Assembly (NCBI RefSeq): GCF_000353285.1
Contig: NZ_KB731324.1
Span: 2,560,577 to 2,624,576 of the forward strand
Reading direction: 5' to 3'
DNA length: 64,000 nt
Source: Leptolyngbya boryana PCC 6306
Lineage (GTDB): Bacteria; Cyanobacteriota; Cyanobacteriia; Leptolyngbyales; Leptolyngbyaceae
Part shown: positions 1 to 13,411 of the stretch, piece after piece
Numbering within the stretch: position 1 is the first letter of the stretch
Layout of the letters: each line of letters starts with the position of its first letter
Program-made: the position numbers and the translations under genes
Notes under the pieces: generated by a model
The model's database searches: none
The model's input: only the letters and a program-made list of their open reading frames with translations
What the model was told of the DNA's origin: nothing

Positions 1-252
1 AGGGGGTTCAAACGTTCTTCTAAACCTACCTGGAGAATTTCGCCCGAATGTCGCAAAACGCTTTCCGGGATCTGATCCGAATCCCTTCTCACTCATCATT
101 TATCCATCAGGGGATCTACAGTTAACCTATCTCACCGCAACCATATCGAGCATTGCTTTTATCCCCCTGGATGTGATCCAATTCTTTGCAAATTAATCAA
201 AGCTCAAAAAACCGGAAAAGCTAACTGCGGAAGAGTTACAAGCAATTAAAAC

Positions 253-287
253 AACCCCCTGGAACTCTTAGAAGGTTCCAGGGGGTT
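253..287. terminator. Octamer-pair hairpin terminator
   Basis: A perfect 13-bp stem (AACCCCCTGGAAC with GTTCCAGGGGGTT) closes a 9-base loop. It lies six bases past the stop of the minus-strand gene ending at 294 and is followed on that strand by a T-rich run, so it probably terminates that gene. Both arms contain the element's octamer. Confidence 0.75.
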
Positions 288-293
288 AAAGTA

Positions 294-1073
294 TCAAGCA
301 CCCTTTGGGTGAATCGTCAGATCCAAGGGTTTACCTCTCAGTTTTCTGTTGATGCCCTCTTGAGCGATCGCAACCATTTCTAGAAGTCCCGAATCATCAA
401 ATCTTGCAAGCCATAAGTAACCGTCTAAATCGCTTCTACCGAGTGCTCTAAAAGCTTCTAGGAGGTTCTTACGGCAAAGCTCGGGATCACCATCACCACT
501 CCAACCGAGAGCAGTTGAAATTAGTCCGCTTGCAACCCCCCAACTATTCAGAGTTTTGCCTTGAATGCCACTTGCCAGGGGGTGCATAAAAATTGTGGAT
601 CGATCGACTCCAACCCCCTGGAAATTCTCAACCACTTTAATGGGTGAGTCAGAACTTGGAAAAAACTCCAGTACGGCACAAGCCCCGACAGTGAGATATA
701 CACCACTATCCGAGACTCTTACAGCATTCTCTAAGGGCACTTTGAGGGATGTCAGCCGCTCTGCTAGTAGCGTCCCTAAAGCGTGTTGATAGTGCTTCTG
801 AATGCCCCGATTGATATGCTTGAGAATCTTTTGAATGAGTGCTGGGTGTGCTTCGGTATGTTGGAGCAACCAAATTCCACAGTAGCGATCGCCAAACTCA
901 TGAATCACTTTTTGGGCAACCTGTAGAGCTTGAGCAAAGTCCTTACGTTTTGCAACTCGCTGAAAGTGGTTGTTGATCCGGCTTAGAAGTTTTATGCCAG
1001 CAGGCTTAAGGGCTTTCTCGAATTTTTGATTATCTTGCTTCATCTTTTTAGGGGGTGTTGCGAGTGTTTTCAT
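294..1073 (-). CDS. Unrecognised 259-aa protein of the integrated element
   Basis: I do not recognise this protein. It is soluble, with no signal peptide or membrane segment. The first 60 residues are rich in Lys and Arg and largely helical in character; the rest is mixed alpha/beta with a Gly-rich stretch around residues 175-195. The ATG at 1073 is preceded on the minus strand by a copy of a repeat (1108-1146) that also precedes the recombinase gene, which hints at shared control. An octamer hairpin follows the stop codon. Two octamer copies lie inside the gene (575 and 614). The gene lies downstream of the recombinase on the same strand, so an accessory role such as element maintenance is possible but unsupported. 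Confidence 0.6.
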   Translation of the reverse strand: MKTLATPPKKMKQDNQKFEKALKPAGIKLLSRINNHFQRVAKRKDFAQALQVAQKVIHEFGDRYCGIWLLQHTEAHPALIQKILKHINRGIQKHYQHALGTLLAERLTSLKVPLENAVRVSDSGVYLTVGACAVLEFFPSSDSPIKVVENFQGVGVDRSTIFMHPLASGIQGKTLNSWGVASGLISTALGWSGDGDPELCRKNLLEAFRALGRSDLDGYLWLARFDDSGLLEMVAIAQEGINRKLRGKPLDLTIHPKGA

Positions 1074-1107
1074 GGGGTTTTGGTGATTCGCTAGTACGCG
1101 ATTATGA

Positions 1108-1146
1108 ACGAGTTTTCAAGGGTTTCAGAGGTTTAGAGGTTGTCAC
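1108..1146. repeat. Promoter-proximal repeat, copy 1
   Basis: This stretch (ACGAGTTTTCAAGGGTTTC and the following AGAGGTTT...GTTGTCAC) is an imperfect copy of sequences at 2387-2432 and 2525-2555. It sits 35 bases upstream of the start of the 259-aa gene, as copy 2 sits upstream of the recombinase start. A shared promoter or operator is the simplest reading. Confidence 0.5.
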
Positions 1147-1244
1147 TAAATGATCTGAATTTTCAAAACCCCCCTGGAGCACTTTGGAGCAATTGTGAAA
1201 GCTCGAAAGCATTGAGGGGATTTCACTTTTGATCGTTTGACCAT

Positions 1245-2366
1245 CTAGAAAATCTCTGGGAGCACTACATTAGTTTTGATAGAGGCTCCATAGTGTTCGT
1301 AGATCATCTTGATCGATGTGCGGGTCATCTTAGCGATCGTTGCGGGGTCTTCTCCCTGACTCAGCCAAAAACTAATCAGAGTAGATCGAGTACTGTAGGG
1401 TTTCCGGTACTCGATTTTTGCTTTTCTGAGGATCACTATCCAAGATTCGCGGAACGTCTGATCGCTAATTTCAGACCCTTGACGACTTGAGGGGAATACC
1501 AGGGGGTTATCAGAGCATCTTGAGAGTTTTCGACGCTTTAAGACTGCTTGTAGGTTGTTTGGTATGTTTATCCATCCGGTCTTGTCATTCTTTGTTGTGG
1601 GGCTAGTTTCACCCCTGGAGAATGACTTATGAAAGTGAATACGATCGCAATCTTCTGAAAGATCATCCCAGGTTAAACAAGCCACTTCACCAAACCTTGC
1701 ACCCGTCCCCAAAAGCACCTTCACTAAATCGGCATAGAACGAATAATAGGGGTCACTTTGGTAAGTTGCGATGACTACAGGGATCTCTTCAGGGGTCAAG
1801 GGTTTTGGCTGAGACTTTTGTTTTTTGATCGTTCTACTCGCACGTTTCCAGGGGTTTGATTTGAGGATCTTCTCATCTTCTGCCCAACTCCAACAGCTTG
1901 AGAGGATTTGTAATCGTTCTTTGATAGTCACGTTAGACAGGGGCAACCCCCTGGAGTTCTTCAGAGTCTTCAGCCAATCTCGAAACTTTGCAGCGGTTTC
2001 TAAATCAATTTCAGAAGCCCTTTTAGTGGTGCTGAAATACTGTTGAACCCGTGCCAGAGTTGCATGATATTTCTGCAATCCCCTGGGGTTTGTTTCATGG
2101 GATTTAACGGTAATGAACCGCTCCATTAGAGCGATTACCGTTAAATCTTCGGTTTGTTTTGGTGAGCTTTCTTGATAGCGTTCCAGGGTGTGATCGTAAG
2201 TGCCATTAATAATTTCTCGCTCGATCCAAGTGGCTTTCGATTTAGCAATATTCTCAGATATCGCAGTACAACCCCCTGGAATATACAGAGTATTTCGTAC
2301 TCCTTTGGGGAATGTCCAACGCAGTCTAAATTGAACGCGATCGATCTCTACTTTGACTCGAACCAT
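1245..2366 (-). CDS. Tyrosine recombinase (integrase)
   Basis: This is a 373-aa site-specific recombinase of the phage-integrase family that would catalyse integration and excision of the element. An N-terminal arm-type DNA-binding region (about 1-65, with the RLRWTFP pattern common in cyanobacterial integrases) is followed by a SAM-like core-binding domain (about 75-165) and a catalytic domain (about 190-365). Visible active-site residues are Arg224 in GARFGEV, a Lys near 259-262, Arg327 and the nucleophile Tyr359 in IYEHYG. The usual HxxR box reads YSTR (324-327), and the second His/Trp position reads MTRTS. The ATG at 2366 fits the family N-terminus. The likely attachment site, tRNA-Asp, is 11 kb away, so the enzyme sits nearer the unseen left end. 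Confidence 0.92.
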   Translation of the reverse strand: MVRVKVEIDRVQFRLRWTFPKGVRNTLYIPGGCTAISENIAKSKATWIEREIINGTYDHTLERYQESSPKQTEDLTVIALMERFITVKSHETNPRGLQKYHATLARVQQYFSTTKRASEIDLETAAKFRDWLKTLKNSRGLPLSNVTIKERLQILSSCWSWAEDEKILKSNPWKRASRTIKKQKSQPKPLTPEEIPVVIATYQSDPYYSFYADLVKVLLGTGARFGEVACLTWDDLSEDCDRIHFHKSFSRGETSPTTKNDKTGWINIPNNLQAVLKRRKLSRCSDNPLVFPSSRQGSEISDQTFRESWIVILRKAKIEYRKPYSTRSTLISFWLSQGEDPATIAKMTRTSIKMIYEHYGASIKTNVVLPEIF

Positions 2367-2374
2367 GCCAAGCT

Positions 2375-2552
2375 CCAGGGGTATCTACGAGTTTTCAATG
2401 GTTTCAGAGGTTTTCTGAGTGGTTGTTACCATGTCTCCACACTTCAACCAATTTTCAATGAATTTTCAAGGGTTCCGGGGTGTAAGAGGTTGTCACCATG
2501 ACTCTGAGTTTCCAGGGGGTATCTACGAGTTTTCAATGGTTTCAGAGGTTTT
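2375..2552. repeat. 40-bp direct repeats upstream of the recombinase
   Basis: Two nearly identical copies (2375-2414 and 2512-2552) begin with the octamer or a one-base-shorter form and continue TATCTACGAGTTTTCAATGG and then TTTCAGAGGTTTT. A more degenerate unit (TTTTCAAGGGTTCC...GTTGTCACC) lies between them at 2463-2502. The first copy ends nine bases before the recombinase ATG. Regulator or recombinase accessory binding are both plausible. Confidence 0.6.
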
Positions 2553-2667
2553 GTGTGACTCCAGACTCCCTGATCTGGCTTTTCGATTTTTTGACAACCC
2601 CCTGAAACCCTATTGCTGGACTCTAGAACAGTTTTAGAGCTTGTCAGGGGGTGTGATAGGACTTCTG

Positions 2668-2744
2668 GAGCTTGTTCGGAGCTTGTTCGGAGCTTGTTCG
2701 GAGCTTGTTCGGAGCTTGTTCGCAGGTTGTTCGCAGGTTGTTCG
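2668..2744 (+). repeat. Seven tandem 11-bp iterons (GAGCTTGTTCG type)
   Basis: Five perfect copies of GAGCTTGTTCG (2668-2722) are followed without spacers by two copies of CAGGTTGTTCG (2723-2744). The period of 11 places every unit on nearly the same face of the helix. There are no spacers, so this is not a CRISPR array. The invariant core is TTGTTCG. Confidence 0.9.
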
Positions 2745-2799
2745 ACATGGGGGACGAACAAAAATATTAAGAAGCTTGTGCAGTAAACGTTTTAGCCAT

Positions 2800-2854
2800 C
2801 GAACACACACCGAACACACACCGAACACACACCGAACACACACCGAACACACAC
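2800..2854 (-). repeat. Five tandem 11-bp iterons in opposite orientation
   Basis: Five perfect tandem copies of CGAACACACAC; read on the minus strand the unit is GTGTGTGTTCG, which matches GAGCTTGTTCG at 8 of 11 positions, including the TGTTCG core. The two arrays face each other across a 55-bp spacer (2745-2799) that holds an A/T-rich run (AAAAATATTAA) and an extra ACGAACA half-site at 2754. This geometry suits an origin or partition site. Confidence 0.88.
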
Positions 2855-2875
2855 CGGATATCCCAGGGGGCTACC

Positions 2876-3187
2876 CTAAGCTGTGACGGGGTTTTCAAGC
2901 CACTCTGATAGCACTTCGAGCAGGTAATGAGCCTCTTGCACGTCCGCTTCAGAGCACCAATCAAAATCGAGAGCTAACTCTGAAAGATGGCATGTGATTG
3001 TTAACATTACTGAATCACCGTTATCAAAGAAGTACTCCCCAGAAATCTCATCGCTCTCAAACTCAGTTGCATCTTCTGAAGAGAGAAACTGATGTAGCTT
3101 TTCTAAGTAGGTTCGAGAGCACCCAGAAAATACTTGAAAAGCGACTTGACGGACATGAATTTTAGGATCGATAAGTGTTTGAGGCAT
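2876..3187 (-). CDS. Small acidic protein, 103 aa, unrecognised
   Basis: I do not recognise the family. Reading from the ATG at 3187 gives a 103-aa acidic, probably helical soluble protein. This start is chosen over upstream in-frame ones because GGAG lies about 12 bases before it and the longer version would translate an octamer repeat (LQGG). It contains the Asp/Glu/Phe/Trp-rich segment LALDFDWCSEAD. It begins right after the 11-bp iteron block and shares its strand with the neighbour at 3260-3550, so the two may be co-transcribed. Confidence 0.5.
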   Translation of the reverse strand: MPQTLIDPKIHVRQVAFQVFSGCSRTYLEKLHQFLSSEDATEFESDEISGEYFFDNGDSVMLTITCHLSELALDFDWCSEADVQEAHYLLEVLSEWLENPVTA

Positions 3188-3259
3188 AATTAAGAAAAAC
3201 TCCATGATGTTTGTGAATCCCCCCTGGAGCTTTGCCGAGTCCAAGGGGTTATTTTTTGG

Positions 3260-3550
3260 TTACTTCTGAGGGGTTGGTAACGCTGGGAGGTTGAGTGTAG
3301 GGATCTTGAGCGAAACCCCAAAGCTTTGGGATAGCCAGGGGGTGATTGAACTATCGAAGTAGTTCCGAGAAACCCGACCAAACCCAATAGAGCGAACCCG
3401 AAGCGATTCAAGCATCTGCAAAGCTTCTAGAAAGTCTTGCCAGATTTGCTGATAGTTAATCGACATCTGCCAAACCCCTTGGTTATTGCAGATTTTGATT
3501 CGTTGCGCTGCATAGGCTCCCAAGAAAGCAGTAAAAATGAGAGTGAGCAT
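3260..3550 (-). CDS. Small protein with N-terminal membrane segment, 96 aa
   Basis: Unrecognised. The start at 3550 is supported by AGGAGA eight bases upstream on the minus strand; the longer reading frame to 3613 would again run through an octamer. The first 16 residues (LTLIFTAFLGAYAA) are hydrophobic and could be a membrane anchor or signal. The rest is Ser/Leu/Pro-rich. It lies just upstream of the 103-aa gene on the same strand. Confidence 0.45.
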   Translation of the reverse strand: MLTLIFTAFLGAYAAQRIKICNNQGVWQMSINYQQIWQDFLEALQMLESLRVRSIGFGRVSRNYFDSSITPWLSQSFGVSLKIPTLNLPALPTPQK

Positions 3551-3924
3551 TTTGGGAATCTCCTGTGAAATTTTTGAAAGTGGTTTAGATGCTCCAGGGG
3601 GGAGCAAAAGCACATCTCAGAATCGGACTGAGAACCCCTACGGTGTTGCGGGGTGAACCATCTGTGCTGTGCAGTTCCGCTTAATCACGTTAAATAAGGT
3701 CACTGCCAACTCAATACGCTCAAGCCCTAACACTTGAGAGGAACACCCGTGAGGGCTGTTTTTGAAGGTTTTTCGGTAGCCCTTCAACCGTCCAGGAGTG
3801 CTATGGTCTAGCGGTTCAACCCGCTCCACTGCTGTTGAGTCCTGTCGTCCCACCTTCCAACATTCGGGGGTCGGTTCCTAACCCTTAACCCTGGGTGCTA
3901 GGTTTGAATCAGAAGCTTAATCTT
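3551..3924. other. No supported gene; downstream flank of the structured RNA
   Basis: A 71-codon minus-strand frame (3638-3853) crosses this stretch, but it has no ribosome binding site and no family I recognise. Its sequence is continuous with the structured-RNA region to the right, and it lies where a nuclease gene would be expected if that RNA were an omega RNA. An octamer occurs at 3594. It may be part of a longer RNA or the decayed remains of an open reading frame. Confidence 0.4.
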
Positions 3925-4172
3925 CGTTCCCTAGCTTTCTTTATCTGAGTCAGAAAAGCCGTTTTCATCGATTCAGAGTTCTTTAAGAACCCCTTAGATT
4001 AAGCAGTAATGGTTGTGTTCAAGGCGGTTGCAATCCCGCTTTATACTCCTTTACCAGACACCCCGGAGTTTTAGATTTTCTCAGGCTTGGTTAACCTTCC
4101 GCTCCATTGTTTCGGCTTTCGCCCCCCGGTAGGAGTCCCCCGGTCGCCTTCGGGGTTGTCTCTCCCCTCGAC
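3925..4172 (-). ncRNA. Candidate structured RNA resembling HEARO / omega RNA
   Basis: The minus strand of this coding-free stretch is rich in local stems: GGC-GAAA-GCC with a GNRA tetraloop (4114-4123), GCGG/CCGC (4024-4039), ACTCC/GGAGT (4045-4069), GTTCTT-x-AAGAAC (3978-3990), and a G-rich 5' segment (4120-4165) able to pair with CCCCG. The order of these parts recalls, from memory, HEARO RNAs, the guide RNAs of IscB/IsrB nucleases. No IscB or IsrB gene follows on the minus strand, so this would be an ORF-less copy. The class assignment is inference; that it is a structured RNA is better supported. The ends are approximate. Confidence 0.42.
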
Positions 4173-4194
4173 AAATCTAATATAAATCAAAATT

Positions 4195-4217
4195 TCAAAA
4201 AGTACAACACTTTTTGA
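4195..4217. promoter_or_regulatory. Palindromic operator 1
   Basis: TCAAAAAGT - 5 bases - ACTTTTTGA, with perfect 9-bp arms. It is the first of two such sites ahead of the ribbon-helix-helix gene at 4341 and is probably bound by that protein or its partner. Confidence 0.65.
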
Positions 4218-4271
4218 TTAATATAAACAGGACTGATTTGGTTTTGCAGGATCATCTAGCTCACTTATAAT

Positions 4272-4293
4272 TCAAAAAGTGTTGCACTTTTGA
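4272..4293. promoter_or_regulatory. Palindromic operator 2 (inverted relative to operator 1)
   Basis: TCAAAAAGTGTTGC followed by ACTTTTGA nearly equals the reverse complement of operator 1, so the two sites form an inverted pair with centres about 76 bp apart. They flank the likely promoter of the gene starting at 4341. Confidence 0.65.
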
Positions 4294-4340
4294 TTAAGCC
4301 AGACTATATTAATTAGGACAGACATCTAACAAGGAGTACT

Positions 4341-4655
4341 ATGTACGCATTGCACCGTAACGACCCCTGTATTTCGATGCCCACAAGACTAAAGCGAATT
4401 AGTGTTGCACTGGATGATGAAGCCTACGCAAAACTGGAAGAACTAGCACTATCCAGTAAAAGACCGATATCAAGTATGGCAGTAGTCCTACTGGAAACCG
4501 TACTGTTCCCAGGGGGGCGAGTTGTGACCCCCAAGAAGAAACCAAAGGAAGACCGTAGAGGGGGTAAACGTGAAGGTGCAGGTAGACCTCGAAAAAAGCA
4601 ATCGAATACTACAAACTCAGGGGAATCTTCAACAGAGCAAAAAGATTCCGAATAA
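4341..4655 (+). CDS. CopG-like ribbon-helix-helix DNA-binding protein, 104 aa
   Basis: After a 13-residue lead comes a ribbon-helix-helix pattern: the strand RLKRISVALDD, then helix AYAKLEELAL, then the helix-2 region ISSMAVVLLETVL (about residues 16-55). The C-terminal third is basic, with the glycine-rich GGKREGAGRP motif often seen in phage and plasmid DNA-binding proteins, and ends in a Ser/Glu tail. AAGGAG at 4331-4336 supports the ATG at 4341; Met13 (4377) is an alternative start that would begin right at the domain. The two palindromes upstream suggest autoregulation. It probably controls copy number, replication or excision of the element. Confidence 0.75.
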   Translation: MYALHRNDPCISMPTRLKRISVALDDEAYAKLEELALSSKRPISSMAVVLLETVLFPGGRVVTPKKKPKEDRRGGKREGAGRPRKKQSNTTNSGESSTEQKDSE

Positions 4656-4822
4656 TTGACAACCCCCTGGAACCCTACTAAACCCTTCAAAGATCCATTA
4701 ATGCTTAATCAGCTACCCCGCGATCGCTCTGGGTGCTCCAGGGGGTGTATTTTTGACGGGCATTTTTAGCGATCACTCTCAAAGATCTCTTGAGTATTTC
4801 CTAATAGTTTCAAAGGAGTTTG

Positions 4823-4879
4823 TTGACAAATTTATCAACGGTTTTAACCCACTTATTGACAAATTTATCAACGGTTTAA
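4823..4879 (+). promoter_or_regulatory. Two direct repeats TTGACAAATTTATCAACGG with 33-bp spacing
   Basis: Copies at 4823-4847 and 4856-4879 are identical over 23 bases. Their starts are 33 bp apart, three helical turns. Each contains an imperfect palindrome (TTGACAAATTTATCAA). A partial third element (TTGACATATCAATAA) follows near 4898. They lie upstream of the 63-aa gene at 4980 and are likely binding sites for it; TTGACA could also serve as a -35 box. Confidence 0.7.
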
Positions 4880-4979
4880 GGTCAATAAATAAGTGTTTGA
4901 CATATCAATAAGAATTGCTTATCATCGAAGTTAATGCAGCAATATCTAGATTGTCTCAAACAATTTTAGGAGTTGAAAG

Positions 4980-5171
4980 ATGGCAAGACCGGGAAGATTT
5001 ATCAACGCAAATTACGAGAGAATCACCATCGCTTTTACATCGGCTGAGTACGATGCTTTGATCGCTAAAAAACCTCAAAATATGCCCGAAGCAACCTTTG
5101 TGAGACAGGCAGCTTTTGAGCGCTTGGGAATTGACCCTAAGACGGTAAATCAAACTGTTCAAGCAGCTTAG
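4980..5171 (+). CDS. Small DNA-binding-like protein, 63 aa
   Basis: TAGGAG at 4967-4972 supports the ATG at 4980. The protein has a basic N-terminal strand, a short beta stretch (RITIAFTSAEY) and two predicted helices (YDALIAKK; EATFVRQAAFERLGI). This suits a ribbon-helix-helix fold of the kind found in plasmid and mobilisation regulators, but I cannot assign a family firmly. It lies between its own direct-repeat operators and the replication gene at 5378, which suggests a role in regulating replication. Confidence 0.6.
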   Translation: MARPGRFINANYERITIAFTSAEYDALIAKKPQNMPEATFVRQAAFERLGIDPKTVNQTVQAA

Positions 5172-5211
5172 AGCAAGATCCAGAGAACATCTTAGGAATT
5201 CTCTAAAGCCC

Positions 5212-5227
5212 CAAAAGTCACTTTTTG
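5212..5227. promoter_or_regulatory. Short palindrome CAAAAGTCACTTTTTG
   Basis: This is one of four intergenic sites of form AAAGT-N-ACTTTT (others at 9688-9703, 10453-10468 and 13171-13185). The half-sites equal those of the 4195 and 4272 operators but with a one-base spacer. It lies 20 bp before an octamer hairpin. Confidence 0.55.
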
Positions 5228-5246
5228 ATTTGGTGCAAGATCAAAA

Positions 5247-5279
5247 ACCCCCTGGAGATTCTCTAAGGCTCCAGGGGGT
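5247..5279. terminator. Octamer-pair hairpin
   Basis: An 11-bp perfect stem ACCCCCTGGAG / CTCCAGGGGGT closes an 11-base loop, with A/T runs on both sides. It lies between the 63-aa gene and the replication gene and probably isolates them transcriptionally. Confidence 0.7.
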
Positions 5280-5377
5280 GATCAAAAATAATTTCAGGTC
5301 GTGTGTGTCTGTTTTTCATAAACCCTTGAGAAATTTGCGGTTTCTCAAGATTCACCTTCAAATATGAGGTCAAGTCG

Positions 5378-8300
5378 ATGAAAGAGATCGAACAGGATTT
5401 GTTGTCTCAAGCCACTGAAGCCAACGAATCAACCAACAATCAAGCCGACAATTCAACAACTAGCTCAACCAACAATTCAATAACTAACTCAATCAACAAT
5501 TCGATGTTATCAAATATGTCAACACTTTTCAAGAAATCCGACGAAACCCAAGCAGAAGTTACCGGAGTTTCTAACAATGGGTCAGGAAATCCGAGAGATT
5601 TAGCGATCGCTGATAGTGCTTCTGAAACTCCTATGATTGCTCCAGGGGGGACTAAACCCAATCACCGTCAGGAAGTAATCGGGTTTGCAAAAAAATTACC
5701 GAAAGATTGTGAATTGACTCCCTATCGGAAACCCACGGAGGAAGAGGAGCCAGACAGGAAACCCGCTTGTGTGCATCCTAGAAAAGCGAATAAAGCAACA
5801 TATCATAGTGACCCTCTAACACCTGACACAATCCAGACTGCACCTCAAAGCATGGTTGGAGTGGGCTTGAATCTGGGAACTCGTTTTACCTCAATTGATG
5901 AGGATTCCCCACTAGCAGCAGAATGGTTAGAGCGTTTCAGAATTGAGCATAATCTTTCTGAGTTGCCTGAGACTTTTACAGTGAGGAGTGGGAGAGATGG
6001 GAGACGGGCAAGACTCTTCAGGCTCCCCCCTGGAATTTCTCTCAAACTCAAGCAAATTTTTGATAAATCGGATTCTGCACACCCAATTCTGGAGTTTCTA
6101 GCAGGCAAGAAGTATCAGAACTTGTATGGGTTTCACCCGATCACAGGAAGTTACCAGAACAATGGCTTAGAGAAAGATGGAGTTTGGCATTTTGAGACTC
6201 TCCCCCTGGATTGGTGTGGAGCGATCGCAAAGCTCCAGGGGGGTAAATCTCAATCCTTTGAGAAACCCGAAAGTGCTTCTGAAAGTAGCTTTTCATCAAC
6301 GGTCTACTATGAAACCGATGTAGCTTCTAAGTTGGCTGAGGTTACGACGAAACTTAGCTTTTTACAGTTTGCGGATGGCTGTGAAGAGTTCAGACCTGAA
6401 TGTGAACATGCTTGGGCTAACGTAGGGCTGATGTTCAAACAGATGACCAAAGACTACCCAGAAGCAGATGAGGAAATCTTTCAGGCTTGGGTCGAATGGT
6501 CGAGAACGGCTAAGGACTTCAAAGACGAACCTGAAGACACCTATCGAGAAAAATGGAATGCTTGGGGCATCAAACCAGAAGGAGAAGCAAAAACAATTGG
6601 AAGCATTCTATGGAAATTCGATCAGGTGTTTCCAAAGATTCAGCAAACTCACTCAGAGAAAGCCGCAGAGGTTCAAAAGCGGCTGAAAGAAATTGAAGCA
6701 AAGCGAGGTGTCCCCAGCTTTGCAGAGAAAGTTCAGAAACTCGCAATTCAGATCATGGGTCAAGACTCCTATGAAGCGTTGGAGGAGAAAGATGATCCCA
6801 CAAAGCTTTTAATGTCGCTCCCTGAATACTGGAGATCAGTACCAGAGCAAGACATAGACAGGGCAAAAGCAGATATCCTGAAACTCGCGGTTTTGTACCT
6901 CAATAAGAAACAAATTCATTCATGCAGTCGTCCAGGGTTTGAATTCGATGATCAGGATTTAGGGAGCCTTGTAGCGAAAGAGATTCGCATCTTACGATCA
7001 CAAGGAAAAACCGAAGAAATCCTAACCCTTTCAGGTGCATTGGTTTGGGGATGGCTGAAAAAGGATGATCCCATCTTCTACGATTACTTGATGCTGCTTA
7101 AGAAGTTCGGGGAACGTCTGAAATACAACGAACTTAAGATGCGCGTTGAGTTAGATGGTCAAGAGTTGAGTCTGGAAGCGATCAAAGCGGATTTGTCGAT
7201 CGATCATAACTTTAAGCCTGCATCTCGAAATAAGGACGATATCAGGGATGCAGTGATCAAAGCGGCTAAAGCACACTCTTATCACCCAATTGTTGACTTC
7301 CTTGAAGGAGTACATCAAAAGTATGGGGATGATACCTCAATCCTCCAGGGGGTTGCTCAAAGATATTTCGGGCAAATTAAACCCATCTACAACACGATGA
7401 TCATTAAGAGCATGGTTGCGGCGGTTGCTAGAGTATTTGAGCCAGGATGCAAAGTAGATACTATACCCATTCTCCAGGGGGGTCAGGGTATAGGTAAGTC
7501 AACTTTTTGGACTGTTCTAGCAGCTAGAGATGATGCTTTCATTGACTCCCTGAACAACTCAAACCCGACAGATGAAATTGCTAAGATGCACAAGCACTGG
7601 TTCTGTGAATATGCAGAATTTGAAACAGCTTTTTCTCGCAAAGCGCTATCAGCAGTAAAAGCTTTCATCACAAATCGAACAGATGTGGTTCGATTGCCCT
7701 ATGCCCGTGCGGATCAATCTATGGAGCGTAGATTCGTTTTAGTTGGCTCCACAAACGAAACAGAGTTCCTGATTGACCCTACGGGGAACCGTAGATTTTG
7801 GATTATCCCTGTATCGGGCAAAGTTGATATTGCTCTGTTGAAAGAGGAAAGAGATCGATTATGGGCAGCAGCAGTAGCACTTTACAAAAGTGGGTATCAA
7901 TGGCATCTAACAGAGGATGAAGAACGAGAAGCAGGAATGATTGCAGATCAGTTTCAAACAACAGACCCTTGGGAAGAGTCGATCAAGGCTTCTTTGCAAG
8001 GTAAAGACATGGTTTCAATTGAAGAGATCCTTTCGTCTGATTTGCTAATTCCAACCCATATGCAGGGACAAAAAGAGCTGAAAAGAGTTTCAAAAATCTT
8101 GACTCAATTAGGGTGGGAGAAAAAGAATAAACGCATTGATGGGAAACAGGTTAAGCGTTGGGTTCCTAGCAATGAAGTGAAAGCTGAATATCAGGGGAAC
8201 CAGGGGGGGACACAAGCCCAAGTAGAGCCAATAACCCAAGTAGAGCCAACGATCGAAGACCTTTTAATCTTCCAAGAATCCCTGATAGCGGATGAGTTCG

Positions 8301-8530
8301 TCAATCAAACTGAAATCAGAAACAAACCACTTCCTAGACTTTGGGATGCCAAGATAGGCGATCAAGTATGGGTTTCTGATAGCGGGAAATGGAAAAGTGC
8401 AACCGTTGTAAAAGAACCTCAAGAAGACATCATGGATGTCTGTCAACGCTGGACAGTGGAAATCCATTGGACTGGAAGACAAGTGGTAATTACAAATCGC
8501 GCAAAGATGAAACCGATGGAAGTCGTTTAA
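5378..8530 (+). CDS. Primase-polymerase / VapE-type helicase replication protein, 1050 aa
   Basis: This is the likely replication initiator of the element. Residues 14-50 are low-complexity Asn/Ser/Thr. Around 95-245 is a primase-polymerase-like region with the acidic motif SIDEDS (172-177) and LPETFTVRSGRDGRR, as in bifunctional primase-polymerases. Around 325-405 is a PriCT-2-like segment. From about 600 to 860 is a virulence-associated-E (VapE/D5-like) ATPase: Walker A GGQGIGKS (701-708), an acidic WFCEYAE (741-747), the sensor motif GSTNETEF and GNRRFW. A winged-helix-like part (about 900-945) and a beta-rich C-terminus follow. GAGGT at 5366 supports the start. Several octamers lie inside, one encoding the residues leading into Walker A. 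Such proteins are typical of phage satellites and integrative plasmids. Confidence 0.85.
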   Translation: MKEIEQDLLSQATEANESTNNQADNSTTSSTNNSITNSINNSMLSNMSTLFKKSDETQAEVTGVSNNGSGNPRDLAIADSASETPMIAPGGTKPNHRQEVIGFAKKLPKDCELTPYRKPTEEEEPDRKPACVHPRKANKATYHSDPLTPDTIQTAPQSMVGVGLNLGTRFTSIDEDSPLAAEWLERFRIEHNLSELPETFTVRSGRDGRRARLFRLPPGISLKLKQIFDKSDSAHPILEFLAGKKYQNLYGFHPITGSYQNNGLEKDGVWHFETLPLDWCGAIAKLQGGKSQSFEKPESASESSFSSTVYYETDVASKLAEVTTKLSFLQFADGCEEFRPECEHAWANVGLMFKQMTKDYPEADEEIFQAWVEWSRTAKDFKDEPEDTYREKWNAWGIKPEGEAKTIGSILWKFDQVFPKIQQTHSEKAAEVQKRLKEIEAKRGVPSFAEKVQKLAIQIMGQDSYEALEEKDDPTKLLMSLPEYWRSVPEQDIDRAKADILKLAVLYLNKKQIHSCSRPGFEFDDQDLGSLVAKEIRILRSQGKTEEILTLSGALVWGWLKKDDPIFYDYLMLLKKFGERLKYNELKMRVELDGQELSLEAIKADLSIDHNFKPASRNKDDIRDAVIKAAKAHSYHPIVDFLEGVHQKYGDDTSILQGVAQRYFGQIKPIYNTMIIKSMVAAVARVFEPGCKVDTIPILQGGQGIGKSTFWTVLAARDDAFIDSLNNSNPTDEIAKMHKHWFCEYAEFETAFSRKALSAVKAFITNRTDVVRLPYARADQSMERRFVLVGSTNETEFLIDPTGNRRFWIIPVSGKVDIALLKEERDRLWAAAVALYKSGYQWHLTEDEEREAGMIADQFQTTDPWEESIKASLQGKDMVSIEEILSSDLLIPTHMQGQKELKRVSKILTQLGWEKKNKRIDGKQVKRWVPSNEVKAEYQGNQGGTQAQVEPITQVEPTIEDLLIFQESLIADEFVNQTEIRNKPLPRLWDAKIGDQVWVSDSGKWKSATVVKEPQEDIMDVCQRWTVEIHWTGRQVVITNRAKMKPMEVV

Positions 8531-8552
8531 GCCATTTGAAACGAAATCACAC

Positions 8553-8607
8553 AACCCCCTGGAACCTTTCAAGCGATCTCAGAGATCTCTCAGGGTTCCA
8601 GGGGGTT
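8553..8607 (+). terminator. Octamer-pair terminator after the replication gene
   Basis: A 14-bp perfect stem (AACCCCCTGGAACC / GGTTCCAGGGGGTT) encloses an inner GATCTC/GAGATC hairpin and is followed by TTTCC. It begins 22 bases past the stop codon of the replication protein. Confidence 0.78.
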
Positions 8608-8631
8608 TCCTCTTTTCAACGAATTTTCCTT

Positions 8632-8940
8632 GCTACCCCTTGCTACCTCTGCTACCCCATGCTACCCCTAGTTTCTAATTAGGGGTAGCACCCTCAAACT
8701 ACCAGGGGGTAAGGCTTTCAGCCTACTGCTACCCCTGCTACCCCTATTTTCAATAAAAAGTACAAATAACTTGTTCACAGGGGAGTACCCCCCCTGGTGC
8801 TGTTGAATATTTCAAAGTTTTGAAAACGGGGTTTTAGGGGTAGCAAGGGGTAGCAGCCTCCCCAAAACTCTTTCAGCATAAGGGTTACAGACTGCTACCC
8901 CTAGGGGTAGCACGGCAAAATCTATAGACTTAGGGGTAGC
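8632..8940. repeat. Iteron-like cluster of GCTACCCCT, at least ten copies
   Basis: Exact 9-mers on the + strand at 8632, 8661, 8728, 8737 and 8894; inverted (AGGGGTAGC) at 8681, 8836, 8846, 8903 and 8932; near-copies at 8642 and 8651. Some are tandem (8728/8737), one pair forms a hairpin (8661-8689) and one pair a perfect 18-bp palindrome (8894-8911). The cluster lies in coding-free DNA directly downstream of the replication gene and contains an A/T-rich interval (8746-8780). It fits an iteron-type origin for the encoded primase/helicase. Confidence 0.85.
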
Positions 8941-8955
8941 AATAGATTTTTATCT

Positions 8956-9132
8956 ATGAAAATCCCTCAAATCTTTACAAAGCAAGTATTACAACGCATT
9001 GAGATCTCTAAAAGCCATTTGCAACAGGATTTTTCAGGCATTTCTCTTGATGCTTTTGTAGAGATTAAGCAAAGTCATGATAAATACTTGATGAGCTTGC
9101 TGATGGCGAAATTAGTAGTCTGTAGGGTGTAG
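8956..9132 (+). CDS. Possible small protein, 58 aa
   Basis: A 58-codon frame with ordinary-looking amphipathic composition (KQVLQRIEISKSHLQQDF near the N-terminus). There is no clear ribosome binding site, but the codons look coding and the frame fills the gap between the GCTACCCC cluster and the next gene. I do not recognise it. Confidence 0.35.
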   Translation: MKIPQIFTKQVLQRIEISKSHLQQDFSGISLDAFVEIKQSHDKYLMSLLMAKLVVCRV

Positions 9133-9155
9133 AGCGTTATACCCCCTTAACTCCC

Positions 9156-9374
9156 ATGATTTCACTGATTGGTCTAGTCATTGCGACCTACACGGTTCCC
9201 CGTCTGCTGACTGAAGTTCTTAACGACAAAAACTCCAACGTTTCCAGGGGGGTCTTCACTCTATTTTTTACACTCAACCTAGCCGCTAGTGGTTTTTTAG
9301 TTATCAAGGTGTTTGAATCTCAGAAGGCTCCAAACAACCCCCTAGGAATTGAAAGATTACCGATGAATTCTTGA
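9156..9374 (+). CDS. Small membrane protein, 72 aa
   Basis: Unrecognised. Two hydrophobic segments (about 2-16 and 33-51) separated by a polar loop suggest a two-pass inner membrane protein. An octamer interrupts the loop (9244), and a variant CCCCCTAGG lies near the C-terminus. No strong ribosome binding site is visible. Small membrane proteins are common cargo in satellites, for example in superinfection exclusion, but nothing here shows that function. Confidence 0.45.
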   Translation: MISLIGLVIATYTVPRLLTEVLNDKNSNVSRGVFTLFFTLNLAASGFLVIKVFESQKAPNNPLGIERLPMNS

Positions 9375-9466
9375 TTTTCGCCCCCTGGAATCTAAAGGAT
9401 CATGCGATCGCTCTAAAAACCGCTCTAGGGGTCAAAAAGATAACTGAATTCCCAAGGGGATTTATA

Positions 9467-9487
9467 GGGGGGGGTGACACCCCCCCC
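9467..9487. repeat. Pure G/C hairpin next to an octamer
   Basis: Eight G then TG, one central A, CA then eight or nine C: a 10-bp perfect palindrome that runs straight into CCCCCTGG at 9484. It lies in a gene-free stretch (9375-9764). It could be a terminator, a polymerase pause or an expanded octamer arm. Confidence 0.6.
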
Positions 9488-9642
9488 CTGGCACTCTGTA
9501 AGACAACCCAGATATCCCTCAGAAATCTCTAGAGCACTTAATCAATCTATGTATCAAATATCCTCTCTGAGTGGTCTAAGTGGCGATTCTAGCCCTTCTC
9601 TTCAATTAATCCCTAGAATCCCTAATTGAGATCCCTTAGCCC

Positions 9643-9743
9643 TTTACAGGGCATTCTAGAGGGATGTATTGATTTATCAACAGTGTCCGAAAGTGACTTT
9701 TTGCAGAGTGACCCCCCTGGAGATCTTGATAGGCTCCAGGGGG
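9643..9743. repeat. Intergenic module, copy 1
   Basis: TTTACAGGGCATTCTAGAGG and the following bases are about 75% identical to 10408-10467. Each copy continues into an AAAGTNACTTTT palindrome (9688-9703 here) and then an octamer hairpin (CCCCCTGGAG 9713-9722 with CTCCAGGGGG 9734-9743). The order is conserved even though the flanking genes differ. Confidence 0.65.
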
Positions 9744-9764
9744 TAATTTGGGTTCGTTTAGGGG

Positions 9765-10130
9765 CTACCGGGGGAGCATGTATTCATACTCTGGGCAAAC
9801 CAACTTTAGAGCTATCAAATCGCTCGAAACTAATAAATCAATCAAAACGGCTTTTTCTATTTGGCTCATTTGGTTCAATCTGGCACGTCTTACAGCCATT
9901 AAGCCATCTAGCGACCCTTCATTTTTTGCAGTGCGGCAAGTGCGGTTAACTGCATCTGCGATCAGTTCTTCACTCGCATAATACTTTCCATAATCGTATG
10001 TTGAAATTCTCCGAATTTCTGCGATTTGCATTCGAGTAGCTTGAAACTCCCTAGCTTCTTGTGCAGCGATCGCGGGGGCTGTGAGACCGATTGCCAGGGC
10101 AGCGAGAGAGAACGATAGTTTGGGTTGCAT
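9765..10130 (-). CDS. Exported protein with signal peptide, 121 aa
   Basis: The N-terminus is a textbook Sec signal peptide: Lys at position 4, the hydrophobic LSFSLAALAIGLTAPAIA, and a likely cleavage after AIAA (near residue 23). The mature part is about 98 residues, helical and Arg/Glu-rich, with two Cys (about 65 and 113) that could form a disulfide. I do not recognise the family. AAAGGA lies upstream of the ATG at 10130. It is monocistronic, between two intergenic modules. Confidence 0.6.
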   Translation of the reverse strand: MQPKLSFSLAALAIGLTAPAIAAQEAREFQATRMQIAEIRRISTYDYGKYYASEELIADAVNRTCRTAKNEGSLDGLMAVRRARLNQMSQIEKAVLIDLLVSSDLIALKLVCPEYEYMLPR

Positions 10131-10407
10131 GGTCGGGTTAGTCCTTTGGGTTAGTTGATGGTTGGTTTAAGGGTTGTTAGGTGAGAATTTGCAAGAGCTT
10201 AGTGGTTCTGTGCTATTTACTCACAAAACTCTTATTTGGCAGCAGTTCAAAACCTTCTGGGCACTTGCACCATAGATTTGATGTTGCCCTCTAGAGCACA
10301 GAATTAACCCCAGAAATGGTTCCGGTTTTCTCACAGGTAAATAGATGAAAATCTCGCTTTGGTCTAGGTTGATCCAGCGTATTTAAGCCTAATAAAGCCC
10401 TCATCTC

Positions 10408-10536
10408 CATTTACAGGGCATCCTAGAGAGATGTATTAGTTGCTCAACACCTAAAAAGTTACTTTTAGAATTCTGATCACACCTAAACCCCCTGGAACTT
10501 TGAGAACCATTGCGATCTCTCTCAAAGTTCCAGGGG
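10408..10536. repeat. Intergenic module, copy 2, with terminator
   Basis: This is the second copy of the 9643 module: the related 60-bp leader (10408-10467), an AAAAGTTACTTTT palindrome (10453-10468), then the longest octamer hairpin, CCCCTGGAACTTTGAG (10489-10504) with its complement (10521-10536), a 16-bp stem. It ends five bases after the HNH gene's stop (minus strand), so it probably terminates that operon. The remaining gap 10131-10407 shows no gene. Confidence 0.7.
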
Positions 10537-10541
10537 ACGCT

Positions 10542-11201
10542 CTACCATTTTGTTGTATATCCGTGTGAGGCTGCAAACTGCTTTAGGGTAGCTCTTGTTA
10601 CGCTCCCCCCCTGGGAATTGACCCAATTGTGATAAGCCTTGTGGATATCTTCACGGATAGCAATCAAGTTTTTCGGGTCAGTTGCTAGATTCGGTTGTTC
10701 ACTAACACCTTCAATATGGTGAACGTGGCACTCTACACCTTGTCCAAATGGTGTCCCAGACAGTGCACAGTGAGTCGCCTTATTTCTTACAGCCTGCATA
10801 GCGCTGATCTTTTTCCGGTCTAATTCTTGTCCTGTCAATTGAGCATCCTTGAAGACTTCAGGGTTATTGGCTAACCAGGCTGAAATATAGGCTCTAGCTG
10901 CAAGGTATTGAGTCTTCTTCTTTGGACTCTCCTCACCGAGTTGTTCTAGAAGAATGTCTATCCCAATATGCTTTAGATACTGATCATCATTTTCCTGCCA
11001 AATGTACGGCTGAACGAATCTCAGGTGAGCTTTGATGATGTTCAAAGCGTTTTGCTTACTATGTGTTAGTAAAACACCATGCATTTCACTTGTAGGAAAA
11101 TAGGCTTTTCCATCTCTTAGCTGCATCTTGGCAAAAAGGCTTTTGAATTTGTTTAGTTGCCCCGGACTTAGATCAGTCTCTATTTGAATAACGGAACTCA
11201 C
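10542..11201 (-). CDS. HNH endonuclease, 219 aa
   Basis: The C-terminal half carries an HNH (beta-beta-alpha metal) nuclease pattern: CALSG (145-149), CHVHHIEG (158-165), Asn178, and His187/His191 in DIHKAYH. The N-terminal 130 residues are helical and unassigned and may bind DNA or the partner. Translation starts at a GTG whose GTGA overlaps the stop of the upstream J-domain gene, so the pair is translationally coupled. A strong terminator follows. HNH enzymes in mobile elements can be homing, restriction or packaging nucleases; the coupled chaperone-like partner is unusual for terminase-type HNH proteins. Confidence 0.82.
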   Translation of the reverse strand: MSSVIQIETDLSPGQLNKFKSLFAKMQLRDGKAYFPTSEMHGVLLTHSKQNALNIIKAHLRFVQPYIWQENDDQYLKHIGIDILLEQLGEESPKKKTQYLAARAYISAWLANNPEVFKDAQLTGQELDRKKISAMQAVRNKATHCALSGTPFGQGVECHVHHIEGVSEQPNLATDPKNLIAIREDIHKAYHNWVNSQGGSVTRATLKQFAASHGYTTKW

Positions 11202-11668
11202 TTATCCAATCCCCCGTTGGATTTTACGAAGGTTCTGCCAACTTCATAGGCATTGATAAGGTTGTTCATTTGAGCTTCAGAACCCCCGTTGTCAGGGTGA
11301 TAGCGTTTCGCTAAGCGATAATAGCGGCGTTTGAGAACCGATTCAAAGTATGCCCAGTCATCTCTCCCTGTATCTTCTGGCTCGTTTTCTAGCGCTTCAG
11401 GAGACTCGAAAACTTCATCAGACCCGACCCCCCGTGGATAAACTAAGTCAGTTAGTAGTACATCTAAATCACTTTTCGCTGATGCTTTGGACAATTCAGA
11501 CCGCAGTGCTTTAATTTCAGTTTCGAGTTTACGTATTTGTGCATCTTTCTGAGACTCTGCATTTAATTTGTCACAGAGTTTCTGCCAACTTCCAGCCTTA
11601 ATCTGGAAATGATCCTTAGCCTCAGAAAATTTCTTATATTTACTCTTCAGGTCTTCAACGGTATACAT
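11198..11668 (-). CDS. J-domain (DnaJ-like) protein with N-terminal coiled coil, 156 aa
   Basis: Residues about 108-143 match a compact J domain: the helix KRRYYRLAKRY, then the diagnostic HPD at 124-126 and NNLINAYEVGR. J domains stimulate the ATPase of Hsp70 (DnaK). Upstream lies a heptad-like coiled coil (about 38-62) and an acidic linker (83-104). There is no G/F region or zinc finger, so this is a class C J protein dedicated to some client. The next gene (HNH nuclease) overlaps its stop by four bases, so the nuclease is the obvious candidate client. The domain assignment is firm; the partnership is inference. Confidence 0.8.
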   Translation of the reverse strand: MYTVEDLKSKYKKFSEAKDHFQIKAGSWQKLCDKLNAESQKDAQIRKLETEIKALRSELSKASAKSDLDVLLTDLVYPRGVGSDEVFESPEALENEPEDTGRDDWAYFESVLKRRYYRLAKRYHPDNGGSEAQMNNLINAYEVGRTFVKSNGGLDK

Positions 11669-11879
11669 TTTTATGCCTAAACTCCTACATTTTGGGACAG
11701 TGCAATGTCTAAAAGCCAGTCAAAAATAACTAGACTTTGTATCTGAGGGAACAATTTCTGCTCTATCTTTCACAAATAACTACAGAAATTATTCCCATAA
11801 CAAGGGGATCTCAAGAAGATTCTCTGAAGCTCCAGGGGGTATTATGATTCCCCTAATTCCCTTCCCCCAATTCCCACCC

Positions 11880-12971
11880 CTAATTCGCGATCGCTTCTCC
11901 GGAGTTTGTGCTGATCGCCACGATCACTGGCGAAACCTCAAAAACGTTCAAAGGTTTCTCAAATCGGCTCCAGAAATCATTACTAAGCAACAGCGGGTCA
12001 GGTGTAGGGATTTGAGGGGTGTTATCAGAGGGTGTGATTGCTCCAGGGGTCATACTGCTAAGGTCAATAATCGAAGCGTTACCCCCTGGAACCCATGAGG
12101 GGGTTGAAGGTTGATTTTTGGGTTTGAAAAACTCATCGGCAGCTTTTTGGATCTCAGGGTCGATCGGTGTGGTTGGAAAGAGTTCTTCCCCAGGGGGTAG
12201 AGTGGATTCAACTCGGGTCGCTGTACTCCAATCAAACGGTGTGGGAGTTCCTAAAGACTCCCACCAATTACCCGATGGTGGGGGAGTCTCCGGAGCAATT
12301 TCTAAAATCGACGGAAGCACTCTACAGAAAGGCTCAAGGTTTTGTTCTGAATCCTCAAAGCCCCCTGAAATCACGTCAATTGGATTAGGGGATAGTGGGG
12401 TTTCTGAAGGGGTGTATCCCCCCTGGTAATAATCTGGAATTGTGTTCGAGGGTATGTTTACAGGGTTATAGATTCCTCCAGGGGTTGGTGTGTGGTCTGG
12501 AGGAACCATAGCCCGTTGAGGATCTACCTTCTCAAAAACACGACCCTGCAAGTCCATTTGGAGCGTCACGAATTCTTTATCAGCCAAGTCAAAAGCTCTC
12601 AGGCTCCCCCCTGGTTTTAAACCCTCACTTGGTAAACCACTGTAAGCAGCCCCCAGGGCATAATCCGTAATGTCTTTAACGCTACTCGCTTTTATTGTGA
12701 AGTTCCATTGGGAGTCATAAGCGCTTAGAGAATAATCTTGAAAAGCTCTGGCGAGAATAACTCGACCGTCCTCATATTCAAACTTATAGTTCTGGGCATT
12801 GCGATCAGCTGTAGGGGTTCTTATGAGATCCCTAGAAGTCATCTTTCCATGTATCGAAGAATCCGAGAGAGTGAAATCAAAGGCACTCTTGAAGCTGCTC
12901 AAAGTGATTTGAGATTCGATTAGAGATGCACTTCTTGAGTAACCTACGCCAGGGGTAAAACTATCGCTCAT
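11880..12971 (-). CDS. Unrecognised Pro/Ser/Thr-rich protein, 363 aa
   Basis: I do not recognise this protein. The N-terminal 165 residues look folded, with alternating beta strands (FTLSDSSIHGKMTSRDL; NYKFEYEDGRVILARAFQDY; WNFTIKASSV). The remaining 200 residues are low complexity, rich in Pro, Thr, Ser and Gly, with several octamers embedded (12082, 12190, 12419, 12607). There is no signal peptide. The disordered tail may simply have grown from octamer insertion, since many of its PPG/PGG/QGG triplets are octamer-encoded. It is the element's last gene before the tRNA-Asp junction. Confidence 0.55.
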   Translation of the reverse strand: MSDSFTPGVGYSRSASLIESQITLSSFKSAFDFTLSDSSIHGKMTSRDLIRTPTADRNAQNYKFEYEDGRVILARAFQDYSLSAYDSQWNFTIKASSVKDITDYALGAAYSGLPSEGLKPGGSLRAFDLADKEFVTLQMDLQGRVFEKVDPQRAMVPPDHTPTPGGIYNPVNIPSNTIPDYYQGGYTPSETPLSPNPIDVISGGFEDSEQNLEPFCRVLPSILEIAPETPPPSGNWWESLGTPTPFDWSTATRVESTLPPGEELFPTTPIDPEIQKAADEFFKPKNQPSTPSWVPGGNASIIDLSSMTPGAITPSDNTPQIPTPDPLLLSNDFWSRFEKPLNVFEVSPVIVAISTNSGEAIAN

Positions 12972-13095
12972 AAGACACTACAAACTTCTGTAGAGCATTT
13001 TTAACACTCTGTCAGTGTTTACCCTGAACTGTTAGGAGCGGATTCATACAATCTTCATACTCATAAAGAATCGTTAGAGTGCGTTATATTTATCG

Positions 13096-13147
13096 CCCCC
13101 TGGAGCATTTAAGCAATTACAAGAAACTTTGATAAGGCTCCAGGGGG
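13096..13147. terminator. Octamer-pair hairpin at the right end of the element
   Basis: An 11-bp perfect stem CCCCCTGGAGC / GCTCCAGGGGG closes a 30-base loop. It is the last paired copy before the chromosome and lies upstream of the minus-strand 363-aa gene, so it may shield that gene from chromosomal transcription. Confidence 0.6.
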
Positions 13148-13170
13148 TGTCTTTGATTACTCTCGATTCC

Positions 13171-13185
13171 CAAAAGTTACTTTTG
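13171..13185. promoter_or_regulatory. Short palindrome CAAAAGTTACTTTTG
   Basis: A perfect palindrome around one base, the fourth AAAGTNACTTTT site. Unlike the others it is followed by GATTA, exactly as in operators 4195 and 4272. It lies between the terminal octamer hairpin and the last single octamer (13205). Confidence 0.55.
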
Positions 13186-13212
13186 ATTACCCGAAATTTT
13201 GATACCCCCTGG

Positions 13213-13380
13213 TGTAGAACGCAAATAAAGTTCTTTACCGAAATCGTTGACAGTCTTTATTTTTCTATATTTGCTTCAAAAGCGTGAAAAAATAAAGTCC
13301 CAGATTCTCAAAGTTTTAGTCCAGATGAGTAAGCAACCTCCGGCTGAGCCGGAGGCTTTAGCGTATGTGCGCCGCTCAAA
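13213..13380. other. Element-chromosome junction zone with GC hairpin
   Basis: No gene. CCTCCGGC-TGA-GCCGGAGG (13337-13355) is an 8-bp G/C stem. AGTCCCAGATT at 13296-13306 repeats the sequence at the 5' end of tRNA-Asp (13604-13614). Octamers stop at 13212. The junction proper is expected near 13536, where the tRNA 3' end begins, so this is probably the terminal DNA of the element. Confidence 0.5.
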
Positions 13381-13411
13381 GCGCAGATTTGGGACTGTAG
13401 TTCAATGGTTA
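13381..13411 (+). repeat. Inverted fragment of the tRNA-Asp 5' end and its flank
   Basis: GCGCAGATTTGGGACTGTAG and the next bases reproduce, in inverted orientation, the 5' flank and first 20 bases of the tRNA-Asp gene at 13536-13609 (three small differences). No complete tRNA can be folded from it, so it is a fragment rather than a second gene. Confidence 0.75.

Follow-up and report, generated by a model that had tools for sequence, protein, structure and literature searches.

The stretch of DNA analyzed here (64,000 nucleotides of contig NZ_KB731324.1 of Leptolyngbya boryana PCC 6306; hereafter, the window) carries most of a 15,874-bp element, which extends from window position −2342 to 13531 and is flanked by two direct copies of a 59-bp sequence from the 3′ portion of tRNA-Asp. 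The element encodes a protein that combines PrimPol, PriCT_2, and VapE helicase parts, in which the PF09250 and PriCT_2 matches exceed their cut-offs, together with two tyrosine recombinases. The recombinase encoded beside the left att repeat (L031:7802-8905) keeps R, HxxRH, GH, and Y in the usual arrangement; in the second recombinase, int2, Y, S, and T stand at the His positions, with two catalytic His changed and both Arg and Tyr kept. The element is also densely occupied by a non-palindromic octamer, present on both strands (CCCCCTGG and CCAGGGGG), which is the subject of this analysis.

Between window positions 163 and 13212, there are 45 exact copies of the octamer (23 CCCCCTGG and 22 CCAGGGGG), close to the approximately 44 copies in 13.2 kb, in both orientations, that an earlier note on this DNA had reported; the remaining 50.8 kb of the window (13213–64000) contains no exact copy of either form, again as that note had observed. 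The whole genome (7,262,454 bases in five contigs) contains 109 exact copies, 54 of them in the full 15,874-bp element and 55 in the remaining ~7.25 Mb. The density is one per 294 bp in the element, where the note had estimated one per 300 bp, versus one per ~132 kb elsewhere, a difference of ~450-fold. The octamer is therefore absent from the chromosome, as the note had put it, within the window, but not genome-wide, where it is at the background level.

The abundance in the element was not explained by base composition. The composition of the window flanks predicted 0.14–0.16 octamers per 15.5 kb, and Markov models of order 1–3, with the octamers masked or the model derived from the flanks, predicted 0.14–0.74 copies in the element; when the octamers stayed in the model, the prediction was 0.6–3.7, far from the approximately 40 copies that the note had considered as a possible effect of composition. 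In order-2 simulations of the masked element (n = 200), no sequence had more than 4 copies of the octamer, or more than 17 of whichever octamer was most frequent. When synonymous codons were shuffled with the proteins kept (n = 1000), the mean was 1.8 and the maximum 6 copies, compared with 28 observed in genes. Sites with one mismatch were also in excess (22 in the element versus ~5 expected), and because 10 of these 22 retain CCCCTGG and differ at the first C alone, the core of the octamer may be CCCCTGG. The observation is thus strong and unusual. The octamer is additional to HIP1 (GCGATCGC), as the note had also stated: HIP1 is an over-represented octamer in the same organism and occurs in the element at 11 sites (0.69/kb versus 0.91–1.02/kb in host samples), but HIP1 is palindromic and genome-wide, whereas the octamer is non-palindromic and characteristic of the element only. 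Because it carries these 11 HIP1 sites, the element has probably been a long-time resident of HIP1 hosts, with a word of its own that has not spread to the chromosome.

With a gene set of 15 open reading frames (ORFs) that we picked from the ORF lists, 28 octamers lie in genes (2.6/kb) and 26 between genes (5.2/kb). The genic copies occur on either strand and in every codon phase, six settings in total, which bears out the proposal that the signal acts at the DNA level and crosses reading frames, and they show no significant orientation relative to the direction of transcription (19 vs. 9, p = 0.087). The spacing of the copies is not more even than random, and the strands are balanced (28+/26−), with mean gaps of 567 nt and 611 nt when the element is circularized. 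If the iteron arrays are presumed to be the origin, the octamers on its two sides (11+/8− and 17+/18−) show no polarity. A longer consensus, ACCCCCTGGARCYTT, is common to the intergenic octamers. Seven close inverted pairs occur in the element, and all six that were folded form strong hairpins. The layout described in the earlier note, with inverted pairs after genes and single copies within them, holds in part: inverted pairs occur between genes, but some pairs are also found inside genes (6202/6235 and −1410/−1368).

The protein-coding copies indicate how the octamers were gained. In the VapE helicase, the octamer at 7474 encodes ILQGGQGIGKST, a Walker A stretch for which relatives have ILQGKQG and similar sequences, and the octamer at 7345 encodes SILQGVA, for which relatives have SILEGMA or similar sequences, with no insertion in either case. 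In the 259-aa protein, octamers encode HPL and QG; the corresponding residues in most relatives are HPL and either QG or EG. No insertions or deletions were found at octamers in conserved stretches of the VapE, 259-aa protein, and integrase alignments; five of the seven VapE octamers are in unalignable linkers, where the origin is not decidable, and 2 of the 10 integrase and 259-aa protein sites shown (−1368 and 1947, both integrase) are in loops of clearly variable length. Because the octamers in conserved stretches sit without such changes, these alignments suggest that point substitution is the main route of octamer gain wherever it can be judged. HIP1 copies are likewise gained by substitution, according to a title in the reference list of PMC4390886.

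Table 1. Coordinates of the element and its features (window positions unless prefixed L031; MFE, minimum free energy)
Feature	Position	Strand	Remarks
Element, window part	1..13531		Left end ~2.3 kb outside the window at L031:7658; 59-bp repeat
Octamer field	163..13212		45 copies in the window, 54 in the whole element
Left att repeat, 59 bp	L031:7658-7716		tRNA-Asp 3′ part
Right att repeat, 59 bp	13532..13590		Within tRNA-Asp (13535-13610)
259-aa protein	294..1073	-	Search of 40 other genomes: relatives in 4
int2, second tyrosine recombinase	1245..2366	-	Candidate DNA-binding regulator
Two 11-bp iteron arrays (7.1 and 5.2 copies)	2667..2856		Candidate replication origin
Small ORF	3260..3613	-	Homologue in G003 element
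Ribbon-helix-helix protein	4341..4655	+	Homologue in G012 and G001 elements
PrimPol-PriCT_2-VapE helicase protein	5378..8530	+	PF09250 aa 136-241, PriCT_2 aa 344-412; 7 octamers
HNH-like protein	10542..11201	-	Under Pfam cut-off; phrog_8048 1.4e-5
Protein with partial J-domain-like match	11198..11668	-	Under Pfam cut-off
363-aa protein, no family match	11880..12971	-	4 octamers
Inverted octamer pair	255..285 (copies 255/278)		15-nt spacer, intergenic hairpin; MFE -25.9 kcal/mol, z -4.5
Inverted octamer pair	5248..5278 (copies 5248/5271)		15-nt spacer, intergenic hairpin; MFE -22.7, z -4.3
Inverted octamer pair, long stem	8555..8605		Directly after PrimPol-VapE gene; MFE -35.9, z -6.7
Inverted octamer pair	9713..9743 (copies 9713/9736)		15-nt spacer, intergenic hairpin; MFE -23.9, z -3.2
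Inverted octamer pair	13096..13147		Near right element end; MFE -28.8, z -5.4

A comparable field of octamers was not found elsewhere. In 387 other cyanobacterial genomes, CCCCCTGGA nowhere reaches an element-like density across a whole genome, although whole-genome counts could miss one small dense element in a high-background genome; the densest (G088) has it once per ~15 kb, compared with 37 copies in the 15.9-kb element. No donor genome with a genome-wide octamer was thus found among these 387, and among 388 genomes the inverted-pair pattern occurs only in the genome that carries the element. In a pattern scan, no locus among viral contigs (21 loci) or among at least 117 stretches of genome contigs (80 examined as loci) came near 3.4 octamers/kb; the highest had 2 copies in an 853-base piece and 9–10 copies in 8 kb with a GC content of 0.64–0.70. 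Close relatives of the element were not detected in plasmids by megablast, and the viral contigs gave no match to the whole PrimPol-VapE protein, its N-terminus, or int1, with one weak 29-residue match to the HNH protein.

VapE homologues were present in 19 of 97 related genomes, this one included, and the comparison set of 26 VapE loci combined 18 of the 20 other places with 7 loci from 107 plasmid records and 1 from 654 phage records. No more than three copies of CCCCCTGG occur per locus in this set. The comparison with other PrimPol-VapE elements that the earlier note had proposed therefore had a divided outcome: this octamer was not shared, two elements (G012 and G003, below) have another word, and most have no word above controls. 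HIP1-like words were filtered from most word rankings of the relatives. In 8 of the 11 VapE loci inspected, the over-represented words were clustered iterons and not dispersed words; these arrays, in L054, L055, L056, L058, L060, L061, L064, and L066, run in both orientations with differing units (GGTGGTAAC, TGGACAACCT, CCCGTCACC, and others) and are probably origins. Other candidates, such as AGCAGGC in L262 and GTTAGAAA in L268, looked dispersed but were not clearly above controls. The loci L383, L379, L278, and L219 ranked at the top beside the element considered here and were excluded by eye as CRISPR-like or tandem arrays. In 19 further loci with integrase or 259-aa protein homologues, there was no comparable word except the tandem array in L278, a locus that also has 7 copies of CCCCCTGG in 20 kb.

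The chromosome is at background, implying that the selecting agent would act on the element alone and would thus be a protein that the element or a helper encodes. It is probable that the octamer is a recognition site for a protein encoded by the element, and the first candidate reader is the element's own PrimPol, a reading to which we give a probability of a little over one in three (about 0.36). According to this reading, selection for many sites would have seeded the octamer by point mutation over the whole element and on both strands, and the octamers would be template signals that the PrimPol binds and at which it starts primers. The excised element would copy both of its strands with its own enzyme, and sites every 570–610 nt per strand would suit primer synthesis on both. 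The protein includes a PriCT_2 domain, which we take to correspond to the helix-bundle-like, template-reading part of such enzymes. The PrimPol of phage NrS-1, which has helix-bundle and ring-forming C-terminal domains, depends largely on an asymmetric 8-nt template word, TTTGGTTA, as described in excerpts of PMC8718748 and PMC7102993; octamer reading by a PrimPol thus has a known example, and the element similarly has an asymmetric octamer and a PrimPol as candidate reader. Judged by sequence similarity, the N-terminus of the PrimPol is as orphan as the octamer: tblastn found nothing like it in phages or plasmids and only two marginal matches among 290 other cyanobacterial genomes, its phmmer similarity to S-LBS1 and some PF09250 proteins was weak, and it matched no solved structure by sequence. 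As a wider proposal, each PrimPol lineage of integrated PrimPol-VapE elements would have its own 7–9-nt priming word, which point mutation would have created and which would be maintained element-wide on both strands as a replication-identity tag, with which the primase copies the element and not the chromosome; we regard this generalization as doubtful.

The elements of genomes G012 and G003, which are related to this one, appear to have a different, sparser dispersed word, (A)CCCACAG[GT]. At the G012 locus, the top dispersed word was ACCCACAG, after which six G/T bases follow in 9 of 11 cases; ACCCACAGKKKKK has 10 copies, in both orientations, in a 20-kb stretch, and it is missing from 36 kb of flanking DNA and from 160 kb of host sequence. 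The G012 genome has 121 copies of ACCCACAGK, 11 of them within 18.6 kb where ~0.24 were expected, which is ~46 times the genome-wide rate; one of these 11 is outside the element, beyond its end, within what we read as a threonyl-tRNA synthetase ORF. In G003, CCCACAG emerged from a scan of the G003 locus itself, and there are 11 copies of CCCACAGK in 15.5 kb versus ~0.55 expected (242 in 6.8 Mb), ~20 times the genome-wide rate, with 3 of the 11 coming from 6 kb taken after the word had been noticed. The copies sit in genes, in several frames, at a density of 0.6–0.8/kb, well under the 3.4/kb of the octamer. Under the strictest null, the scores were −6.2 for G012 and −5.8 for G003, whereas the best host control scored −5.3 and the strongest of the other VapE loci −6.7, and the G012 word was weak (−4.3) against the sampled host and strong by the whole-genome count. 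G003 also has a separate cluster of six CCCACAGK copies in 15.5 kb, without homologues of the element genes, indicating that clusters of six arise without an element. Because the two loci are only slightly above controls under the strict local null and this chance cluster exists, the claim of a second word rests on the genome-wide counts. The N-termini of the G012 and G003 primase-VapE proteins are homologous (5.7e-37; 33% identity), and within the VapE set that of G012 matches only that of G003. A homologue of the ribbon-helix-helix protein is also found in the G001 element, which has no word above controls, and the primase is therefore the best fit among the shared parts.

Several results weigh against the PrimPol as the reader. 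NrS-1 has two copies of its word in the genome, plus a GTG site that is primed more efficiently (excerpts of PMC7102993 and PMC8718748), compared with 54 octamers in the element. The predicted structure of the PrimPol (pLDDT 37.8) was too poor to use. The N-terminus of this PrimPol has no detectable homology to those of G012 and G003. The G003 protein, unlike that of G012, has no PF09250 match below 0.01 and is labelled a PrimPol by its homology to that of G012; its N-terminus weakly matches two other loci (5.6e-9 and 9.8e-6), neither of which has a clear word. The G012 and G003 elements, moreover, have one other small ORF in common. In a test fixed in advance, none of six plasmid stretches with a G012-like PrimPol (11 records found) had an excess of CCCACAGK. 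No excess was seen in any of 11 chromosomal loci with a G012-like PrimPol N-terminus (lowest P 0.2). Among loci with a homologous PrimPol, the word is thus common to G012 and G003 and without excess in 17 others, and the link between PrimPol kinship and word is not general. In a survey of PF09250 that compared 40 of 57 other places, with repeat arrays set apart, the best words reached 10^-9.4 (L380) and 10^-9.3 (L389), versus 10^-46 for the element considered here and 10^-7.7 for the best host control. The other loci with both PF09250 and VapE have the two in the same ORF (L380, L387, and L389) or in separate ORFs (L382, L388, and L396); among these six and phage S-LBS1, only L380, from genome G258, has a word that is possibly above controls. 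A stricter common test set 10 loci classed as PrimPol-VapE, of which three have the domains in separate ORFs, against 36 stretches of host DNA and 23 further VapE loci. The PrimPol-VapE group ranked marginally higher (p = 0.049 versus host and 0.054 versus other VapE loci), and without the element considered here, the comparison with the host gave p = 0.105. G258 may be a further case of a dispersed word: CTGCTGA, which was chosen after inspection, has 23 copies in 10 kb (L380 1-8850), in both orientations, beside the PrimPol-VapE gene, compared with 6 in 20 kb of the same genome.

The main rival, which we consider somewhat unlikely, is that the octamers are dispersed sites for another DNA-binding protein of the element (ribbon-helix-helix proteins, int2, or a 99-aa ORF), with a silencer, nucleoid, or segregation role. 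Small candidates exist in the ribbon-helix-helix protein and in an Arc-like match at L031:9487-9813, and the intergenic octamers, with twice the density and the longer consensus, would fit such sites. The loss of both catalytic His makes int2 somewhat like MrpR, the recombinase-fold repressor that acts on the dispersed, prophage-specific SPBRE sites of SPbeta, but those sites are intergenic (excerpts of PMC10516654), whereas 28 of 54 octamers are genic. Similarly, the stoperators of phage L5 are asymmetric repressor sites (more than 20) distributed over the whole phage genome, as the octamer is over the element, but they are 13-mers located in short intergenic spaces or promoters and oriented with transcription (excerpts of PMC9283540). 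Because half of the octamers are genic, in all six codon settings and with no significant orientation with transcription, both repressor models differ from the octamer in a defining feature. The copy number of SPBRE is also much lower, and the octamer is denser than the stoperators. The ribbon-helix-helix protein is further disfavored by its homologue in the G001 element, where no word exceeds controls, and int2 by two relatives with equal His changes (L262 and L266) in loci without a comparable word.

The octamer may instead be a nuclease stop or Chi-like signal that protects against a helper phage or host exonuclease, or a packaging or identity mark of a satellite; we judge this improbable. 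Copies on both strands would guard either end, and the integration at a tRNA gene, the PrimPol-VapE gene, and a small minor-tail-like ORF are satellite-like features. This 126-aa ORF (window 1–196; L031:9816-10196), which resembles the C-terminal region of a family of phage minor tail proteins (phrog_3285, 3.6e-8), hints at a phage satellite, but neither a helper nor a terminase was identified, with no search for one in the rest of the genome. The Chi-like signal suggested in the earlier note, in the polar sense in which Chi and KOPS are used, is not supported by the strand counts about the iterons, and a Chi site of the host should be frequent on the chromosome, where the octamer is at background.

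Decayed palindromic units, inserted by a selfish mini-repeat or by a gene-conversion drive without function, are still less probable. Small mobile repeats of cyanobacteria are known (a title in the reference list of PMC4390886), and the strong hairpins of the inverted pairs and the likeness of the intergenic copies beyond the octamer would agree with such an origin. However, the spreading mini-repeat of the earlier note is not supported by the protein alignments, in which octamers in conserved motifs lie without insertions or deletions, loops and linkers being undecidable. In addition, 54 exact cores compared with 22 one-mismatch sites, 10 of which retain CCCCTGG, indicate that the core is not decaying freely.

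It is very improbable that the octamer is an uptake or transfer tag, preferred by a competence or conjugation machine. The DNA uptake sequences of Neisseria and Haemophilus are short words in both orientations, with inverted pairs between genes and copies within them, and the parallel that the earlier note had drawn with them holds for the orientations (28+/26−) and the inverted pairs; gain by substitution and single genic copies are also like those sequences. In contrast, uptake sequences enrich the genome of the competent host, as a host-encoded receptor would, whereas the octamer is confined to one element with the host at background, and even the densest of the 387 other genomes is far below the element. 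No transfer genes were recognized among the 17 element ORFs scanned. A methylation or restriction identity tag is the least probable: the octamer is non-palindromic on both strands and HIP1 is tied to methyltransferases (excerpts of PMC4390886), but no methyltransferase Pfam match was found among the same 17 ORFs.

Signal words that act genome-wide, such as uptake sequences, HIP1, and Chi, are already known. A word restricted to one 15.9-kb mobile element, at 450 times its density in the host, was not found among the top matches in open-licence PMC papers. The octamer offers a direct and cheap test of what reads such a word, and it could reveal the sequence that a mobile-element PrimPol recognizes. 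It also indicates that a mobile element can be under strong selection for a short word while the host remains unaffected.

Three minor observations were made at these loci. The VapE locus L070 (G053) is rich in CTAGGATC, GAGGCCTA, CCCCCGGG, and similar words that are rare in its host sample, possibly reflecting avoidance of host restriction sites. A 17.5-kb Nostoc plasmid with a PrimPol gene (NZ_CP091924.1) encodes an annotated protelomerase family protein (L400 1707-2735). Finally, inside the right end of the element, a 17-nt stretch at window positions 13390–13406 exactly matches the 5′ end of tRNA-Asp and is perhaps the remnant of an earlier tRNA copy.

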